From positions 1-22,951 of the IMG/VR virus record IMGVR_UViG_3300009502_000213: a DNA stretch of 22,951 bases; one strand, written 5' to 3'. This DNA is from a virus. Made by a program: the position numbers and the translations under genes. Below are positions 3,123 to 16,650 of the stretch, piece after piece; positions within the stretch are counted from its first letter, which is position 1, and every line of letters starts with the position of its first letter. The notes below the pieces were generated by a model that made no database searches, had not been told where the DNA came from, and saw only the letters and a list, made by a program, of their open reading frames with translations.

Positions 3123-3767
3123 ATGACAACATACAAGCTTAAAATTCATCTAATAGAATCTGGAAAAAAAGAACATAAATGTGAAAATTGCAATTTAACT
3201 TCGTGGTTAAACTCTTTAATTCCTTTAGAACTACATCACGTAGATGGTAATAGTAAAAATAACGAGTTAAATAATATCCAATTACTTTGTCCGAATTGTC
3301 ACGCATTAACACCAAACTACAGAGGAAAGAATAAAAAGAGAGAGAAAAAACAAATCAATGTGCCTGATGAAGTTATTATTAAAATTGTTCCTACGTGTTA
3401 CACGATACGACACGTATTGTTGGAAGTTGGATTGGTAGCGGCTGGAGCCAACTATGCCAGAGTGAAAAGTATTATGATAAAAAACAAAGTGTCGTTTAAA
3501 AAGAAACAAATTTCTGATTCGTCTGAGAAAAGACTTAACACGATTCGACTAAAATATGGTTCTATAAAGGAATCCACTAGGACAAGAATTGTTTGGCCAG
3601 AAAGAGATGTTTTAGAAAAAGATATACGAGAGCACTCTCTATCGTTTATAGGAAGAAAATTGGGAGTATCAACTGGCGCTATCAAGAAACACGCAAAGAA
3701 GTATGGAATCGATGTATCTCAAATAAATCCATGGTGTAAAAAACATGGTAGCCGCAGTGGGATTTGA
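3123..3767 (+). CDS. HNH homing endonuclease
   Basis: Free-standing HNH nuclease, on the strand opposite its neighbours. Zinc-binding Cys20-x2-Cys23 and Cys56-x2-Cys59 flank the HNH core: LELHHVDGN (His38/His39), Asn50/51 and the CPNCH end. The C-terminal half (about 160-210) contains LGVSTGAIKKHAKKYGI, a helix-turn-helix likely to contact the target DNA. It makes site-specific cuts that promote copying of its own gene. Codon use is more AT-rich than the flanking genes, fitting transfer. The last residues (SRSGI and stop) are read from the antisense of the tRNA-Leu 3' end. Confidence 0.9.
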   Translation: MTTYKLKIHLIESGKKEHKCENCNLTSWLNSLIPLELHHVDGNSKNNELNNIQLLCPNCHALTPNYRGKNKKREKKQINVPDEVIIKIVPTCYTIRHVLLEVGLVAAGANYARVKSIMIKNKVSFKKKQISDSSEKRLNTIRLKYGSIKESTRTRIVWPERDVLEKDIREHSLSFIGRKLGVSTGAIKKHAKKYGIDVSQINPWCKKHGSRSGI

Positions 3768-3829
3768 ACCCACAATCCCGAAGGCAAGCGATTTTAAGTC
3801 GCTTATGTATCCCGTTCCATCATACGGCC
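3746..3829 (-). tRNA. tRNA-Leu(UAA)
   Basis: Class II cloverleaf: acceptor GGCCGTA/TGCGGCT, anticodon stem AGCGA/TCGCT with loop CTTAAAA (anticodon UAA, U33 present), a long variable arm (GCCTTCGGGAT) and T-arm GTGGG TTCAAAT CCCAC. CCA is encoded (3746-3748). The HNH gene converges on it and ends inside the T-arm. A degenerate promoter motif lies at 3856-3870. Confidence 0.9.
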
Positions 3830-5933: not shown

Positions 5934-6311
5934 TTAGTTGTAAACGGACTGAGTGGGAAAGATCGAATGTAGACGAGACAATACAGCAGCGGCGTTTTGC
6001 CCTTCTACCGTCTTGGCCGTTACTCGAACGATGGACTTGGAAATACCATCGTAATTTTCCTTCTTTCGATCCTCGTTTGTATCAAACTCCGACTCTGGAT
6101 AATATCCATCGTCATTAAAGTCATAATACATTAGTTCAAATGTAAACAGTTCATCTGCAGACTGAGTTGAACCGGCCAACTTAAGAAGGGCATCAACGAG
6201 GTTTCGAATAGTCGTCACTGTCTTATCTGTTGCCATCACAAAGATCTCACTCGAACTATTCGTAATGAGATCGACCACCGAATGAACAGGAATGTCGATT
6301 GATTTGAACAT
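5934..6311 (-). CDS. ITNSSSEIF-motif protein, second paralogue (125 aa)
   Basis: Paralogue of the gene just upstream. Shared parts: IPVHSVVDLITNSSSEIFV at the N-terminus, a helix (LVDALLKLAGSTQSADELFT) and FTFEL. This copy has an extra acidic Tyr-rich insert (YYDFNDDGYYPESEFDTNED) before a conserved final strand-helix. The Thr-Asn-Ser-Ser-Ser-Glu block is strictly kept between copies and is likely functional; I do not know its function. Soluble, probably alpha/beta. Confidence 0.82.
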   Translation of the reverse strand: MFKSIDIPVHSVVDLITNSSSEIFVMATDKTVTTIRNLVDALLKLAGSTQSADELFTFELMYYDFNDDGYYPESEFDTNEDRKKENYDGISKSIVRVTAKTVEGQNAAAVLSRLHSIFPTQSVYN

Positions 6312-7129: not shown

Positions 7130-7160
7130 AAAGTGTTTAAGATACCAATGTGATACAGAA

Positions 7161-7175
7161 AATAAGAAATGTCAA
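7161..7175 (-). promoter_or_regulatory. Degenerate promoter motif upstream of structured RNA
   Basis: Minus-strand TTGACATTTCTTATT keeps the first nine bases of the consensus; it lies 31 nt before the closing helix of the RNA. Confidence 0.4.
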
Positions 7176-7227
7176 GAAATATTATTCAAAGCTGTTCAAA
7201 TCTTTAGGTTTGAATGTATTTATTTGT

Positions 7228-7878
7228 ATGCACTACCTAATATACAAAATAACGAATAAACTGAATGGAAAGATTTATGTTGGGAAACATAAAACAGAGA
7301 ATGAAAATGATGAATATTTTGGATCTGGACTATTGCTAGAACGAGCTATTACTAAATATGGAAAGGACAATTTCTCAAAAGAAATAGTGTATCGTGCAAA
7401 TTCTTTGGAAGATATGAATAAAATGGAAACGGATATAGTAGACGAAGATTTTGTGGCCAGATCAGACACATACAATTTAAAAATTGGAGGTGATGGTGGG
7501 TGGGACTATATCCTTAAAAACAGATTGTGGTTGACTGATAAATGGTATGAATCCATGAAAAATAATTGGAAGTGTGGAAGAGAAAAGTTAGAAACTCTCA
7601 TGGAAGACGAAGAATTCAGAAATCAATTTTCCAAAAAAGTGTCCGATGGATTAAAATTATTTCATGTCAATAATCAAAATTCCTTCAAAGGAAGAAAACA
7701 TACCGATGAGTCAAAAAACAAAATGAGATCGGCTAAGACTGGTAAATGTGATGGACCATCAAATAACATGTTCGGCCGTATGTGGATCAACGATGGGTTG
7801 AAATCAATAACGATAAAAAAAACCGAACAAATACCAGAAGGATTTAAAAAGGGACGGCTCCCCAAGATGTTATCTTGA
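7228..7878 (+). CDS. GIY-YIG homing endonuclease (first)
   Basis: 216 aa from the ATG at 7228, where the domain begins; an upstream in-frame ATG at 7150 would add 26 non-conserved residues. N-terminal GIY-YIG nuclease domain with degenerate LIY (4-6) and YVG (17-19) motifs, followed by the expected acidic helix with Glu (MNKMETDIV). The C-terminal half has a NUMOD3-like DNA-binding repeat (HTDESKNKMRSAKTGK) and a MWINDGLKSITI motif often found in phage homing nucleases. Inserted between the structured RNA and tRNA-Met, opposite in direction to both; AT-rich like the other endonuclease genes. Confidence 0.9.
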   Translation: MHYLIYKITNKLNGKIYVGKHKTENENDEYFGSGLLLERAITKYGKDNFSKEIVYRANSLEDMNKMETDIVDEDFVARSDTYNLKIGGDGGWDYILKNRLWLTDKWYESMKNNWKCGREKLETLMEDEEFRNQFSKKVSDGLKLFHVNNQNSFKGRKHTDESKNKMRSAKTGKCDGPSNNMFGRMWINDGLKSITIKKTEQIPEGFKKGRLPKMLS

Positions 7879-7889
7879 AAGGAGCCGGG

Positions 7890-7961
7890 GAGCAGGGACG
7901 GCGTTTGAATCCGTTGCTTAACGTTATGAGCGTCACGAGTTACCGCATACTCTACCCTGCC
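7890..7961 (-). tRNA. tRNA-Met (CAU; could be Met, fMet or Ile2)
   Basis: Acceptor GGCAGGG/CCCTGCT, D-arm GAGT/ACTC with GG in the loop, anticodon stem TGACG/CGTTA with loop CTCATAA, T-loop TTCAAAC with one A-G mismatch in the T-stem. CCA is not encoded (CCC follows). Lies 12 nt beyond the end of the converging GIY-YIG gene. Decoding identity cannot be separated among CAU tRNAs by eye. Confidence 0.85.
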
Positions 7962-7973
7962 GTAAAATGAAAT

Positions 7974-8046
7974 TGGAGCGGATCGGGGTATTGACCCCCT
8001 CTTAACTTCTGGTCGAAGCTCGTGCTGAACATTACACTAAATCCGC
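7974..8046 (-). tRNA. tRNA-like gene, anticodon unclear
   Basis: 73 nt with encoded CCA: acceptor GCGGATT/GATCCGC, discriminator T, D-stem GTGT/GCAC, anticodon stem AGCTT/AAGTT, T-region GGGG/CCCC. Anomalies: the D-loop lacks the GG pair, the anticodon loop CGACCAG has G at position 33, and the T-loop is short (TCAATA). Either a divergent tRNA or one that has decayed; anticodon ACC by position but not trustworthy. Confidence 0.55.
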
Positions 8047-8114
8047 GTGTATCTAAAAGAACATTGATCATCTTACCTATCATGGTAACAATGTCAATAA
8101 GAAAGTATCTATTT

Positions 8115-8247
8115 CCTATCATGTGGGAATCGAACCCACTTCGAGTCGTTTTAGGCGACTCTTCTCCTCTTTACCTTTATCCGTGTACTTTGGAGATAAA
8201 AAAGTCTATCCATTTCAGGCAGCATTGACCAAATATGCTTATGATAA
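8115..8247 (-). tRNA. tRNA split by a 60-nt insertion
   Basis: 3' half: anticodon stem AGTCG/CGACT with loop CCTAAAA (UAA by position, but C33), T-arm GTGGG TTCGATT CCCAC, acceptor ATGATAG. The matching 5' half is 60 nt away: acceptor TTATCAT (7 bp, one G-U), D-stem GCAT/ATGC with GG-containing loop (8221-8247). Removing 8161-8220 gives a 73-nt cloverleaf. The insert itself can form TTTATC/GATAAA. Could be a real intervening sequence, or the fused remains of two tRNAs. Confidence 0.55.
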
Positions 8248-8263
8248 GAAATAAAAGTCTATC
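8196..8263. repeat. Imperfect direct repeat around the split tRNA
   Basis: ATAAAAAAGTCTATC at 8196-8210 (inside the insertion) recurs as ATAAAAGTCTATC at 8251-8263 (just upstream of the tRNA 5' end), suggesting a local duplication created the insertion. Confidence 0.6.
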
Positions 8264-8333
8264 TCAGAGAAACTCACTCATACTCAAGCACCATTCCCAG
8301 GGTAGCTCTTTCTTTGTGAAACCCATCTCTGAG
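8263..8333 (-). other. Foldable segment with 8-bp closing stem
   Basis: CTCAGAGA at 8263-8270 is exactly complementary to TCTCTGAG at 8326-8333, 71 nt end to end. That is tRNA-sized, but I could not fit D, anticodon or T arms. The rest of the transcript up to the promoter at 8518 holds further small stems (for example GGCT/AGCC, CACC/GGTG) and no convincing gene. Confidence 0.35.
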
Positions 8334-8517
8334 CGGTTTGTCCGTTGCTTTCGGCTTGTAACAGCCCAGGCCACGAAAACCGAGAAAATGAAAGAACAAA
8401 AATTAGACGGCGTTTTACAGACGAAGATGCGCCAGCCCTTCGGGGTCTAAACCCTCACCTTTATCACGGTGGTCTTTTCAACCAGCTCAGTCTTAACAAC
8501 CAAGATCGTACTTATTT

Positions 8518-8532
8518 TTTATAGAATGTCAA
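8518..8532 (-). promoter_or_regulatory. Compact phage promoter motif for the tRNA region
   Basis: Minus-strand TTGACATTCTATAAA; reads into a non-coding stretch that leads to the split tRNA. Confidence 0.62.
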
Positions 8533-8542
8533 CTAAAAACTA

Positions 8543-8622
8543 AATTATCTTACAAATCAGCCGGATTCGAACGGCTCTCCTTTTCTTGTGAAGGGTGCAT
8601 CCCAAAAACTTGTAAGATAATT
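8543..8622 (-). tRNA. Short tRNA-like element within a 13-bp inverted repeat
   Basis: AATTATCTTACAA (8543-8555) and TTGTAAGATAATT (8610-8622) are perfect inverted copies. Inside is a cloverleaf-like fold: acceptor ACAAGTT/GATTTGT, D-like GGG/CCC, middle arm CCTT/AAGG and T-arm AGCCG TTCGAATC CGGCT with a typical T-loop sequence but 8 nt long. The tRNA core is only 63 nt and no anticodon with U33 fits. Possibly a tRNA mimic or decaying tRNA. Confidence 0.5.
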
Positions 8623-8635
8623 AAAAATTCTAAAA

Positions 8636-8847
8636 CCGATCTGAACGTTACGAGATTGTTCGGCTAACACAACCTTATCGAAAGGAGCGTGGGAGAAGAT
8701 GAAGCCTATCTCTTAAACCACTCATGGGACATTCAGTCGCCCGAATTGCAATATGAATCAACATACAACTAAAATTCACTCCCCTAACGTTTTCGTTGGC
8801 CTTATCGCTTTCGCTCAAACCCCTATACGCTTCGTCGTTCCAATCGG
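8636..8847 (-). ncRNA. Candidate structured RNA, about 210 nt
   Basis: 8836-8847 pairs with 8636-8647 (CCGAT and GAACG against CGTTC and ATCGG, a symmetric 2-nt internal loop between), and the helix extends by ACGA/TCGT (8832-8835 with 8650-8653) after a 2-nt bulge. Inside are a CAACG/CGTTG-type hairpin with an AAAA loop and a GC-GAAA-GC tetraloop stem. A perfect promoter motif lies about 100 nt upstream (8945-8959). No start codon at the usual distance opens a gene. Function unknown. Confidence 0.45.
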
Positions 8848-8944
8848 CTAGTCAAGCGGCTCTAAGGAACAGTGCGGAGAGTTTGATCCATGGAGATGAC
8901 ATAACCACAGATAATTAAAAGAACAAGAAAGATCATTCAAACTT

Positions 8945-8959
8945 TTTATAAAATGTCAA
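8945..8959 (-). promoter_or_regulatory. Compact phage promoter motif
   Basis: Minus-strand TTGACATTTTATAAA reading into the non-coding region 8630-8944. Confidence 0.68.
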
Positions 8960-9247
8960 GTGTGTTCGCTGTAAATGTTGCCGGTTTTCGTGCCGTATAA
9001 CGGACTTGTGGGATGCCTCCCAGATTCCGATTGACACAGACTCATGGCCCATGGAGTTATGGTGCTCCATCTACACTATCTTGAGAGTTTATTTCCCAAG
9101 TCGAGAAAGCAAATTCTACGAACAACTGACAAAGAACAAAATTGGTGGCCACTCTCGGCCGGTCACGTATCCATGGTCGTCCCAGACAAATTTTATTCTG
9201 GCCGTGGTATCGTTTAACGTTTAACGTTTTGTTAGCTAACGAAAGTA
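8960..9247. other. Gene-free stretch after the 102-aa gene
   Basis: No convincing gene. Contains small hairpins (ATGGAG/CTCCAT at 9051-9070, GGGA/TCCC, CCGT/ACGG, GGCC/GGCC) and a CGTTTAA tandem repeat near 9211-9226. Frames of 72-75 codons on both strands lack protein-like composition, and the minus-strand one would overlap the 102-aa gene by 37 nt. Confidence 0.4.
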
Positions 9248-10731: not shown

Positions 10732-11556
10732 TTACTTTTGTTTTCTTCTAACAAACCAAGCGATTAACGATCCACCAACGATAACCATCCCAGTATAAGG
10801 AAGTTCCGGAACAACCTTTCCGTCGATCTTTTCCCAGTCGGAAGAGGATTGATACAAAAATAGTCCGCTTGGGTTTGTGGTTGTTGAACTCGATTGAGTA
10901 GTAATGCTATTCGTGTTATCCACTCGAACTACCAAATAATTGTCGCCTATCTTGAAAACTGAATTGTTATTCGTTCCATAATTAGCCAGAGTAACAGAGG
11001 TGGTATTCAACCATGCGCTTGTATAGTCATACGCCGCTGGAGTTCCGTTTGGTAGCGATGTACCGTTTCCTTGAGGATTTATATAAACACTCCACTGATC
11101 ATCTGCTGCCAACGTGAGAGATATTGCAACGTGATTCGTTACAGTTGATCCGACATTGTCGCCGGTGATATTAAACTTCAACGTATAAAGGTATACGCCC
11201 ATATTGGAATTCCATCCCTTAGTCGTTCCGTTTCCGGGCAATCCATACACACCATTTCCATTTGTGGAGAACACCGCATTCGGAGCAACAATCCATTGTG
11301 CGTCGTTTGTATTATTTATCCATCCGCCCGCCAATCCATTTCCAGCAAATGCATTTGGATCTATTACATACGCATCTCCAATGTAAGTACTGTTGGTAGA
11401 CTGTCCACCATTTGTTGATGCGTAAGTTACATTCCAATTAGGATCTGAGGAACCTGCTGAAAGAGAACCTCCTGTATAATACAATCCAGAGATATCGGTG
11501 GCGGTTCCGGCCATCAATATCAAAGGTAATAGGAGTAATAAAATAAATCTTTTCAA
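10732..11556 (-). CDS. Secreted surface protein with PEP-CTERM/LPXTG-like tail
   Basis: 274 aa. Signal peptide (1 to about 17, MKRFILLLLLPLILMAGTAT), then an Asn/Thr/Gly-rich beta-sandwich-like domain to about 245, of the type seen in exported surface proteins (SLTLAADDQWSVYINPQGNG). The end is a textbook sorting signal: VPELPYTG at 249-256, a hydrophobic helix, and RRKQK. VPE fits PEP-CTERM (exosortase); LPYTG fits the sortase LPXTG box. Probably displayed on the host surface through host machinery; adhesion or superinfection exclusion are guesses. Start overlaps the upstream gene by 4 nt; last gene of the RNA-ligase operon. Confidence 0.85.
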   Translation of the reverse strand: MKRFILLLLLPLILMAGTATDISGLYYTGGSLSAGSSDPNWNVTYASTNGGQSTNSTYIGDAYVIDPNAFAGNGLAGGWINNTNDAQWIVAPNAVFSTNGNGVYGLPGNGTTKGWNSNMGVYLYTLKFNITGDNVGSTVTNHVAISLTLAADDQWSVYINPQGNGTSLPNGTPAAYDYTSAWLNTTSVTLANYGTNNNSVFKIGDNYLVVRVDNTNSITTQSSSTTTNPSGLFLYQSSSDWEKIDGKVVPELPYTGMVIVGGSLIAWFVRRKQK

Positions 11557-11986: not shown

Positions 11987-12154
11987 TTATTCTTTAATCT
12001 CCGACAGATCAGCTTTGATTCGTTCGAGTTCTTCTATGTTTATATTAACGATCTGGCCCATGATGCTGCCAGTCTCCATTTTACTTAACAATTCCCTTTT
12101 GCCCACAATGGTCTGTTCGAGGTTATCGATAACTTCTTGGAGTGTAATTTTCAT
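11987..12154 (-). CDS. 55-aa coiled-coil protein
   Basis: Read from the gap: starts MKITLQEVIDNLEQTIVGKR, two charged helices with heptad-like spacing (ELLSKMETGS, ELERIKADLSEIKE). Its ATG overlaps the RNA-ligase stop (ATGA), so it is translated with it. Could be a small partner protein; no family recognised. Confidence 0.68.
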   Translation of the reverse strand: MKITLQEVIDNLEQTIVGKRELLSKMETGSIMGQIVNINIEELERIKADLSEIKE

Positions 12155-13257
12155 TTTAAAACTTGATAGAGGAGTTTCTTGTACGAATCAGAATCCAACG
12201 GTTTGTGGTCGTACATCTTGAACAACATGGCAGAACGTCCAGTCGTTCCGTAAGCCTGTAAGATCTTTCCAGCCGCATCCTTGCGATTCATCGTGAGAAC
12301 AGGTTGAACAAACACCTTCATTCCGTCAATGATTTTCTGAACTTCTTTCATTCCATCAGCGATACGAGAAACGTGTCCCGTGGCCATCGTGGCGATTTCG
12401 AAGTCGAAAGTCTCTGAGAGATAGTTAAAGAATTCTTGATAAGTCGGAGCAACGAAGTTATTGGCTTCCATCGTGTTCATATAAAGATCGATCACCTTTT
12501 CAAGTGAAGCGATATCAGACTTGGCACGATGTAAGAAAAGATACTGTGCAGACTTAACCTTGCGGATGTTCTGGCCGTTGTTATAATAAACGCAGATTCC
12601 TTCTTGTCCACGAAGAGCCTCAATGGAAGACTTCATCTCTTCAATTGAGTCATATGAGAATGAACGAGGGCGAAGAAGTTTTAATGCTTCGGCCATATTG
12701 TCCAAACCAGATTGGGACATCAAGGAATAATCCTTGTGATTGATGATAGCGATGAGCTTCATATCAGGCTCAACCCCATAATCAATTACGATGCGGTTCG
12801 TTGGAGAAGTCCACTCAAACACAACGGAGAAGTCCGAAGTCTCTTCGTTTTCTAAAATACGAATAAACGAATCATACTTTGCAATGAGATAATCAATCTC
12901 ATATCCATTGTCCTGAGTACGAGCATTCACCGTTCCACGAGTACGAATAATCGTGTAACCCTTATATCGGGAAAAAATCAGAGTTGATCCATCCAACTTC
13001 TCGATCATCTTTGCCCCATTGAGATTCTCAGGAGGAGGAGTTATTTCAGGCTTCTCGTCCCAGTTGAAGAACTTAGGAAACGAGGCTGAGATAAGTTCAC
13101 CGTCCATGGTCCACACGGAGGACCGAAAGATAAGATTTTCCTTGGTCCAATGGACTCCGATGTGAGTTGGTTGTACTAATAGAACCGGCACATCTCCAAC
13201 AAAATGTTGGTGAACCATAAACGATTCTGAATCAATGGTGGATAAATCGATCTTCAT
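12151..13257 (-). CDS. rnlA: RNA ligase, T4 Rnl1 family
   Basis: 368 aa, close to T4 Rnl1 (374). Nucleotidyltransferase motifs in order: KLDGS with the AMP-accepting Lys87, a preceding RSSVWTMDGE and KFFNW as in the T4 enzyme, FEWTSPTNRIV at 147-157, EGICVYYNNG (Glu219) and the lysines of RKVKSAQYLFLH (233, 235). It seals 5'-phosphate to 3'-hydroxyl RNA ends with ATP; in T4 it repairs tRNAs cut by host anticodon nucleases. No end-healing kinase/phosphatase is in this window. First gene of a five-gene operon, 19 nt after a TCGAC-type promoter motif. Confidence 0.92.
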   Translation of the reverse strand: MKIDLSTIDSESFMVHQHFVGDVPVLLVQPTHIGVHWTKENLIFRSSVWTMDGELISASFPKFFNWDEKPEITPPPENLNGAKMIEKLDGSTLIFSRYKGYTIIRTRGTVNARTQDNGYEIDYLIAKYDSFIRILENEETSDFSVVFEWTSPTNRIVIDYGVEPDMKLIAIINHKDYSLMSQSGLDNMAEALKLLRPRSFSYDSIEEMKSSIEALRGQEGICVYYNNGQNIRKVKSAQYLFLHRAKSDIASLEKVIDLYMNTMEANNFVAPTYQEFFNYLSETFDFEIATMATGHVSRIADGMKEVQKIIDGMKVFVQPVLTMNRKDAAGKILQAYGTTGRSAMLFKMYDHKPLDSDSYKKLLYQVLK

Positions 13258-13635: not shown

Positions 13636-13655
13636 AAGAAGTACCGTAAGGACTT

Positions 13656-13670
13656 TTTATAAAATGTCAA
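13656..13670 (-). promoter_or_regulatory. Compact phage promoter motif
   Basis: Minus-strand TTGACATTTTATAAA before the 113-aa basic gene; stop of the 99-aa gene is 4 nt upstream. Confidence 0.72.
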
Positions 13671-15620: not shown

Positions 15621-15978
15621 ACTAAAATAAAAACTTTTTCGTTCCCATATAGCCTGATATTTTCAGTGCCGTTCCTCTTATTTAATTTCCTAACAACTTC
15701 CCACTATCTTATCCCCCCCCTCACCTTGTCTCTCTACTGCGTCTCTTACAACACCATTCTAGAAAACACGGACGGCGCGGACCGTCAAAAAAAAAACGCG
15801 CCTCAGGTTCAGTTAAATCATGGGCTTATCATCAAAGAACAACTCTAACAATACAGATATATATCATCAGGTCAAGAAATATCTTCACTTTTTAATAATT
15901 TCTCTCACTTTTATTCTCTCACCGATATATTTATTAATATGGGAAGAAGAAAATTATACGTTACTAAGGAACAACAAG
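15621..15978. other. Gene-free spacer upstream of the second GIY-YIG gene
   Basis: Pyrimidine-rich on the plus strand (about 15665-15755) with a C8 run at 15713-15720; then a GACGG/CCGTC hairpin followed by A10 on the plus strand (about 15767-15795). No gene is evident; an in-frame extension of the endonuclease to 15820 would add a hydrophobic N-terminus but lacks the Shine-Dalgarno sequence seen at 15979. Confidence 0.45.
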
Positions 15979-16650
15979 ATGAGAATTCCAGAAACAAATC
16001 AAAACGATATTATCAACGAAATAGAAGGAAGATCCTCAATAGACAAATGGATAGGTATTTACGGATTGCGAAACAGAGTAAATAACAAGTGGTATATAGG
16101 ACAGAGTGTTGACATAAAAAATAGATGGGAAGTAGGCTATAAAACATATCATTGTAAAAAACAAAGAAAACTATACAACGCGTTGATCAAATATGGGTAC
16201 GAAAATTTTGATAAAATTGTTCTGGAGATTTGTTCTTTAGATGAAAATTTGCTTACTGAAAGAGAGGATCATTGGATTAAATTTTATAATTCCATTAATA
16301 ATGGTTATAATATTAGAGAAGCCAGTAGTAAGGGGAAAGTTTCAGAAGAAACCAAGTTAAAAATTTCTCAATCATTAATCGGAAGAAAAGTGCCAACGAG
16401 TTCCATCATAAAACGTACAGAGACGAGAAGACTTAATGGAACTTATAAAAGGAGCCCTCTATCAGATGAAACAAAATTGAAGATATCAAATTCGTTAAAA
16501 GGTAAAAAAGTTAGTATGGGATTTACCGGAAAGAAACATTCAAATGAAACAAAATTGAAGATGAGTTTATCTAGTAAAGGAAAGTCAAAACACCATCATA
16601 AACTTTCTTCAATCTTCTTTATAAATCCCAAAGTACTCACGAAGTTCTGA
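15979..16650 (+). CDS. GIY-YIG homing endonuclease (second)
   Basis: 223 aa from ATG 15979, which has an AAGGA Shine-Dalgarno 8 nt upstream. GIY (26-28) and YIG (39-41) motifs, the catalytic Arg in IKNRW (49) and Glu in the TEREDHWIKFYNS helix identify the nuclease domain. Three NUMOD3 DNA-binding repeats follow (SEETKLKISQSLIGRK, SDETKLKISNSLKGKK, SNETKLKMSLSSKGK). The last 14 codons lie antisense to the 36-aa phage gene, so the tail may be acquired from it. Strongly AT-rich, opposite strand to neighbours. Confidence 0.92.
   Translation: MRIPETNQNDIINEIEGRSSIDKWIGIYGLRNRVNNKWYIGQSVDIKNRWEVGYKTYHCKKQRKLYNALIKYGYENFDKIVLEICSLDENLLTEREDHWIKFYNSINNGYNIREASSKGKVSEETKLKISQSLIGRKVPTSSIIKRTETRRLNGTYKRSPLSDETKLKISNSLKGKKVSMGFTGKKHSNETKLKMSLSSKGKSKHHHKLSSIFFINPKVLTKF

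Follow-up and report, generated by a model that had tools for sequence, protein, structure and literature searches.

We report that a virus record of 22,951 bp, analyzed here in its entirety (the window), carries on its minus strand, read from 8247 down to 8115, a tRNA-like element with 60 nt lodged between its D-arm and its anticodon arm. An earlier, sequence-only reading of the same DNA had proposed this interrupted tRNA fold, and our analysis confirms it on the minus strand. With roughly even confidence, we take the element to be a tRNA-derived, five-armed structured RNA that forms the end of a non-coding transcript and remains unspliced. Because the insert folds as a fifth arm and the ends of the element pair over 15 bp, an unusual structured RNA looks likelier than a tRNA that is cut and rejoined. 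Likewise, the long stem, the missing CCA, C33, and an equally odd neighbor at 8622-8543 suggest that a tRNA with an added intron is too simple a description of the element. Its parts are the following.

8108-8255, minus strand: whole tRNA-like element, comprising terminal stem, D-arm, extra arm, anticodon arm, and T-arm (folding).
8241-8255, minus strand: 5' strand of the 15-bp terminal stem, with 8247-8241 as the tRNA acceptor part (pairing).
8221-8239, minus strand: D-arm, AGCAT-ATTTGGTCA-ATGCT (sequence, folds, ARAGORN on the joined form).
8161-8220, minus strand: 60-nt insert between D-arm and anticodon arm (sequence, folds).
8166-8204, minus strand: hairpin of the insert, the fifth arm, with 13 predicted pairs (MFE).
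8143-8161, minus strand: anticodon arm, GAGTCG-CCTAAAA-CGACTC, with anticodon UAA and C33 (sequence, folding).
8123-8139, minus strand: T-arm, GTGGG-TTCGATT-CCCAC (tmRNA-model match, E 0.0015; folding).
8108-8122, minus strand: 3' strand of the terminal stem, with 8122-8116 as acceptor (sequence, pairing).

Read from 8247 to 8115, the element consists of TTATCAT, AA, the D-arm GCAT-ATTTGGTCA-ATGC, T, the 60-nt insert, the anticodon arm, CGAA, the T-arm, ATGATAG, and G. The claim that removal of 8161-8220 restores a 73-nt cloverleaf holds: when 8247-8221 is joined to 8160-8115, the MFE structure of the resulting 73 nt is exactly the cloverleaf, and ARAGORN at default settings accepts the joined sequence as tRNA-Leu(TAA). 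The boundary of the insert is uncertain by one base, as position 26 could be either T8221 or G8161. In the joined form, the acceptor has 7 bp including one G-U, the anticodon arm is 5-7-5 (AGTCG-CCTAAAA-CGACT), and the D-arm carries A14, GG, and A21. Thus, without the insert, the element possesses four arms and the signature bases of the T-loop and D-loop, the exceptions being A8 and a C33 in place of U33. A8 is the weaker sign of oddity, being present in 13 of the 117 tRNAs surveyed in the window and in related phages. The element has no CCA and ends in G73 at 8115. To our knowledge, the combination of a UAA anticodon, C33, G73, and a short variable loop matches no usual tRNA identity. Moreover, a UAA anticodon is already supplied elsewhere in the window.

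3746-3829, minus strand: tRNA-Leu(TAA), an ordinary class II tRNA with CCA (ARAGORN, Rfam).

An ordinary phage tRNA is an uninterrupted cloverleaf found by standard models, with a 7-bp acceptor, free ends, and usually an encoded CCA; the element falls outside both parts of this description. Run in intron mode on the intact window, as had been proposed, ARAGORN reports only tRNA-Leu and tRNA-Met, and the intact element is called neither by the default or intron modes at default threshold nor by the Rfam tRNA model. Rfam matches only the T-arm in this region, via the tmRNA model (E 0.0015). We rejected a tmRNA, given that the T-arm is the sole match and that an ARAGORN tmRNA search of the window finds none.

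The 5' half of the element is rarely matched by chance. Specifically, with the 3' half held fixed, we searched the 300 nt upstream of it for the highest-scoring combination of acceptor and D-arm. The score of the element was matched or exceeded in 21 of 20,000 real phage segments and in 7 of 20,000 dinucleotide shuffles, so chance supplies a comparable 5' half in roughly 1 of 1000 cases. This score leaves out the extension of the terminal stem beyond the acceptor. A 60-nt deletion slid across the whole window produced a new ARAGORN tRNA call solely at the element, besides the edges of tRNA-Leu. Deletions of 190-220 or 360 nt also yield calls with the 3' half of the element. ARAGORN is thus lax on the 5' half, and the scored null is the better measure.

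The proposed 7-bp acceptor is present, but the terminal pairing does not stop there: the stem runs unbroken for 15 bp, 8255-8241 with 8108-8122, comprising 13 Watson-Crick and 2 G-U pairs. The uncut 148-nt RNA has an MFE of -44.2 kcal/mol (z -4.54), and 0 of 200 shuffles are as stable. Its fold is a five-armed cloverleaf: besides a D-arm, a 6-bp anticodon arm, and a T-arm, the insert forms an arm at 8204-8166, which bears out the suggestion that the insert has a stem of its own. Folded in a 446-nt context, the pairs of the terminal stem have probabilities of 0.83-1.0. By comparison, the acceptor is extended by at most 2 bp in 115 of the 117 tRNAs from the window and related phages, and 100 of the 117 encode CCA. 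In 2.36 Mb of strand (the window and the phage loci collected), a T-arm is accompanied by a terminal stem of at least 12 bp in just two elements, 8108-8255 and 8543-8622. By sequence and folding, the RNA displays all four tRNA arms plus the insert arm, and the 15-bp stem covers the usual sites of maturation; on our reading, the RNA would keep its insert.

The insert itself offers a clue to its origin. A near copy of the tRNA leader had been noticed within it, and local alignment of 8267-8247 with 8218-8194 gives a score of 27, equaled in 8 of 3000 shuffles (p about 0.003). The 3' half of the insert shows no significant copy of the trailer (867 of 3000 shuffles are as good).

8194-8218, minus strand: near copy of the leader, within the insert (local alignment).
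8247-8267, minus strand: leader sequence copied in the insert (local alignment).

The leader copy supports the idea of local duplication, through which the insert likely arose; the extra arm would derive from the leader and the 5' strand region. A second tRNA beginning inside the insert was considered and rejected: judged by eye, it has no acceptor partner in the right register. The same copy bears on whether assembly or sequencing fused two pieces. The element comes from a single metagenome record with no close relative for comparison, but the insert holds a copy of adjoining sequence, promoter spacing around the element is regular, and the two acceptor strands on either side of the insert pair with each other, all of which make such an artefact highly improbable. 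Alternatively, the element could be a functionless remnant, a former gene among decaying tRNA copies that was broken by local duplication. The leader copy, the neighbor at 8622-8543 with no D-arm, C33, the lack of CCA, and the redundant UAA anticodon are all in keeping with decay. All arms are fully paired, however, and stems of 15-16 bp are kept in both elements, where drift should break them; we regard a remnant as somewhat unlikely.

The neighborhood of the element provides context for the unspliced, five-armed reading. The second tRNA-like element lies 290 bp upstream of the first on the same strand, and the two are weakly alike in sequence (43 of 3000 shuffles are as good). The motif TTGACATTTTATAAAAA has 24 matches in the window at up to 3 mismatches, compared with 1.1 expected; 22 of these are on the minus strand, mostly right ahead of minus-strand genes (for example, 8943-8959 and 13654-13670). 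Seven relatives carry an identical 19-base match to this phage promoter motif upstream of the ligase. Three units in the non-coding stretch 7885-8960 are defined by sigma-70-like sites, which begin at 8959, 8532, and 8097 and are thus spaced 427 and 435 bases apart. Unit 1 ends in the element 8622-8543, unit 2 in the five-armed element, which stops 11 bases ahead of the unit 3 promoter, and unit 3 in tRNA-Met.

8932-8959, minus strand: promoter of unit 1, TTGACATTTTATAAAAA (motif).
8543-8622, minus strand: second tRNA-like element, lacking a D-arm; its terminal stem has 16 bp and the loop of its T-arm 8 nt (folding, z -4.47).
8505-8532, minus strand: promoter of unit 2, the unit whose 3' end is the five-armed element (motif).
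8070-8097, minus strand: promoter-like site of unit 3, leading to tRNA-Met (TTGAC-to-GTTCTTT spacing of 35 common to L022).
7888-7961, minus strand: tRNA-Met(CAT), an ordinary tRNA with 96% identity to a tRNA-Met of G002 (ARAGORN).

GTTCTTT stands 35 bases past TTGAC in units 1 and 3 and 135 bases past it in unit 2. In L022 (35), tRNA-Met is likewise preceded by this arrangement, as it is in L042 (34) and L028 (57), where the promoter matches are weaker. This boxA-like heptamer lies at 8056-8062 and 8918-8924 in the window, and also in L022 and L042. Its location 34-35 bases from the promoters of tRNA units suggests, from sequence, antitermination of untranslated transcripts. GIY-YIG and HNH homing endonuclease genes are also found in the window, at 7150-7878, 3123-3767, and 15820-16650, all on the plus strand; two of the three directly adjoin or overlap tRNA genes.

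The notion is that the phage promoter at 8532 would drive a non-coding transcript of roughly 400 nt with the five-armed element at its 3' end, and that this transcript would stay unspliced. The element might then serve as punctuation or as a tRNA mimic, not as an amino-acid carrier. Least certainly, the terminal stem may stack on the 5-bp T-stem to give about 20 bp and a stable 3' end; alternatively, and with as little certainty, the stacked stem may be a landmark for RNase III or RNase P on the upstream non-coding RNA. A possible parallel is mascRNA of MALAT1, a eukaryotic tRNA-like RNA at the 3' end of a long non-coding RNA, which is matured by RNase P, receives CCA, and is not used in translation. 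The likeness, a tRNA-shaped end of a non-coding transcript, concerns a possible way of working, and we claim no homology. In favor of the unspliced reading we count the five-armed fold, the 15-bp stem, the long-stemmed neighbor, the absence of CCA, the odd identity, the tandem promoters, and the leader copy. Against it we count that the other interrupted tRNAs, those in related phages, resemble intron-bearing tRNAs more closely, and that a gene interrupted only recently could still have every arm intact in the absence of selection.

A competing idea is that the element is an intron-bearing tRNA, from which an unknown nuclease excises the 60 nt and the phage RNA ligase seals the halves to yield a class I tRNA with anticodon UAA. 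The perfect cloverleaf of the joined exons argues for it. The insert, however, fits no known intron class. As had been claimed, the interrupted fold does not match a group I intron: group I introns likewise interrupt bacterial and phage tRNA genes, but they are much longer and are located in the anticodon loop, whereas here no Rfam intron model, and hence no group I catalytic core, matches at the element, and 60 nt are too short for one. Archaeal bulge-helix-bulge (BHB) introns resemble the insert in measuring tens of bases and in having known positions outside the anticodon loop. Unlike them, the element has no BHB within 6 bases of both junctions even with relaxed sizes, by which we rejected a BHB intron, and no EndA-type gene was found. 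Specifically, neither the window nor four related records, all of them fragments, contain tRNA endonuclease, Pnkp, or RtcB (PF01974, PF25109, PF01139); for PF01974, the tRNA splicing endonuclease, the records searched are G000, G001, G002, G005, and G008.

An RNA ligase had been noted 4 kb away and is indeed encoded there.

12151-13257, minus strand: T4 Rnl1-type RNA ligase (PF09511, E 4.8e-12; phrog_562, E 4e-37).

T4-type Rnl1 is known for repairing cut tRNAs, so the ligase by itself is no argument for splicing. It is present in 33 related loci, and in G002, G004, G006, and G007 it occurs with no strong interrupted tRNA in the part of the tRNA arrays covered. The cut-and-seal route that the sequence-only reading had floated is thus unsupported, given the lack of a BHB, the lack of endonuclease, Pnkp, and RtcB in these fragmentary records, and a ligase that also occurs where the tRNA arrays covered gave no strong interrupted tRNA.

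Comparison with related phages, another check that had been proposed, uncovered no relative of the element, with or without the insert. Searches of viral contigs and genomes with exact and degenerate exon patterns, and of phage records with blastn, returned nothing beyond T-arms; the lack of a homologue precludes a covariation test. The radical SAM protein and 5934-6311 led to no relatives, and those reached via DUF7227 have no synteny in common with the window. The ligase, by contrast, leads to large phages carrying tRNA arrays, mostly at 60-64% identity (just 38% for G008). A deletion scan of 128 kb of their tRNA arrays plus the window revealed several strongly supported interrupted tRNAs in L035, L037, L038, and L040. 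As controls, reversed sequences gave two single calls, and 490 kb around ligase genes gave only clusters of up to 3 calls. We read the insert positions from sequences and folds.

L035 2401-2504: interrupted tRNA, 104 nt, also in L037 (deletion scan).
L037 15392-15507, plus strand: interrupted tRNA, insert of about 32 nt in the anticodon loop (deletion scan).
L038 1326-1440, minus strand: interrupted tRNA, insert in the T-arm (deletion scan).
L038 5968-6090: interrupted tRNA (deletion scan).
L040 5294-5442, minus strand: interrupted tRNA, insert of about 74 nt in the D-loop (deletion scan).
L040 10548-10665: interrupted tRNA (deletion scan).

A pattern covering the 3' part alone, not the insert, located the 104-nt interrupted tRNA in nine contigs (L090-L098), and all nine contain the insert. 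The insert stem shows one compensatory change, from G-C to A-U, which hints at a structured, retained arm; it is a hint and not proof, as it represents one evolutionary event in sequences that are 98% identical. ARAGORN at default settings missed every interrupted tRNA noted here, so the class is probably under-counted.

Interruptions at the anticodon loop, D-loop, and T-arm, several in tRNAs with CCA, lend weight to excision, as do the encoded Rnl1-type ligase and the tRNA introns reported in Lak megaphages (PMC6784885). Most of these related-phage tRNAs have ordinary acceptors, and the window element differs from them in both acceptor and CCA. Its 15-bp terminal stem, missing CCA, and C33 speak against excision, as do the absence of a BHB at the junction, of tRNA endonuclease, Pnkp phosphatase, and RtcB in the fragmentary records, and of any uninterrupted relative. 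On balance, excision seems to us somewhat unlikely for this element, on a par with a functionless remnant. The broader proposal, that large phages of this group have tRNA inserts at many positions, removed in bacteria by an undescribed protein cut-and-seal route using the phage RNA ligase, strikes us as quite unlikely.

We know of no removal route for short tRNA introns outside archaea and eukaryotes, and our literature search turned up no paper that describes how phage tRNA introns of this kind would be spliced. The Lak introns, called enigmatic, come from tRNAscan predictions made with its eukaryote settings, and some have insert-free alleles (PMC6784885); the main text of a huge-phage survey does not mention introns (PMC7162821). 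The window element shares with the Lak introns a short insert of no known intron class in a tRNA gene of a large phage. It differs in its insert at 26/27, its 15-bp terminal stem, and the lack of a known insert-free allele. The Lak phages raised the question of removal in 2019, and none of the papers we found settles it. The element and the interrupted tRNAs of related phages supply specific sequences for deciding between tRNA splicing by phages and the production of tRNA-shaped, extra-armed RNAs that are never spliced.

Finally, two further features accompany these loci. Phage tmRNA genes lie about 2-4 kb upstream of the RNA ligase in L009, L010, L011, L012, L014, L017, L019-L021, and others, with a tag that starts AKRNLAK. 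In the window, a phage protein encoded at 10732-11556 on the minus strand has a signal peptide and a C-terminal tail resembling a sorting signal (PELPYTGMVIVGGSLIAWFVRRKQK).
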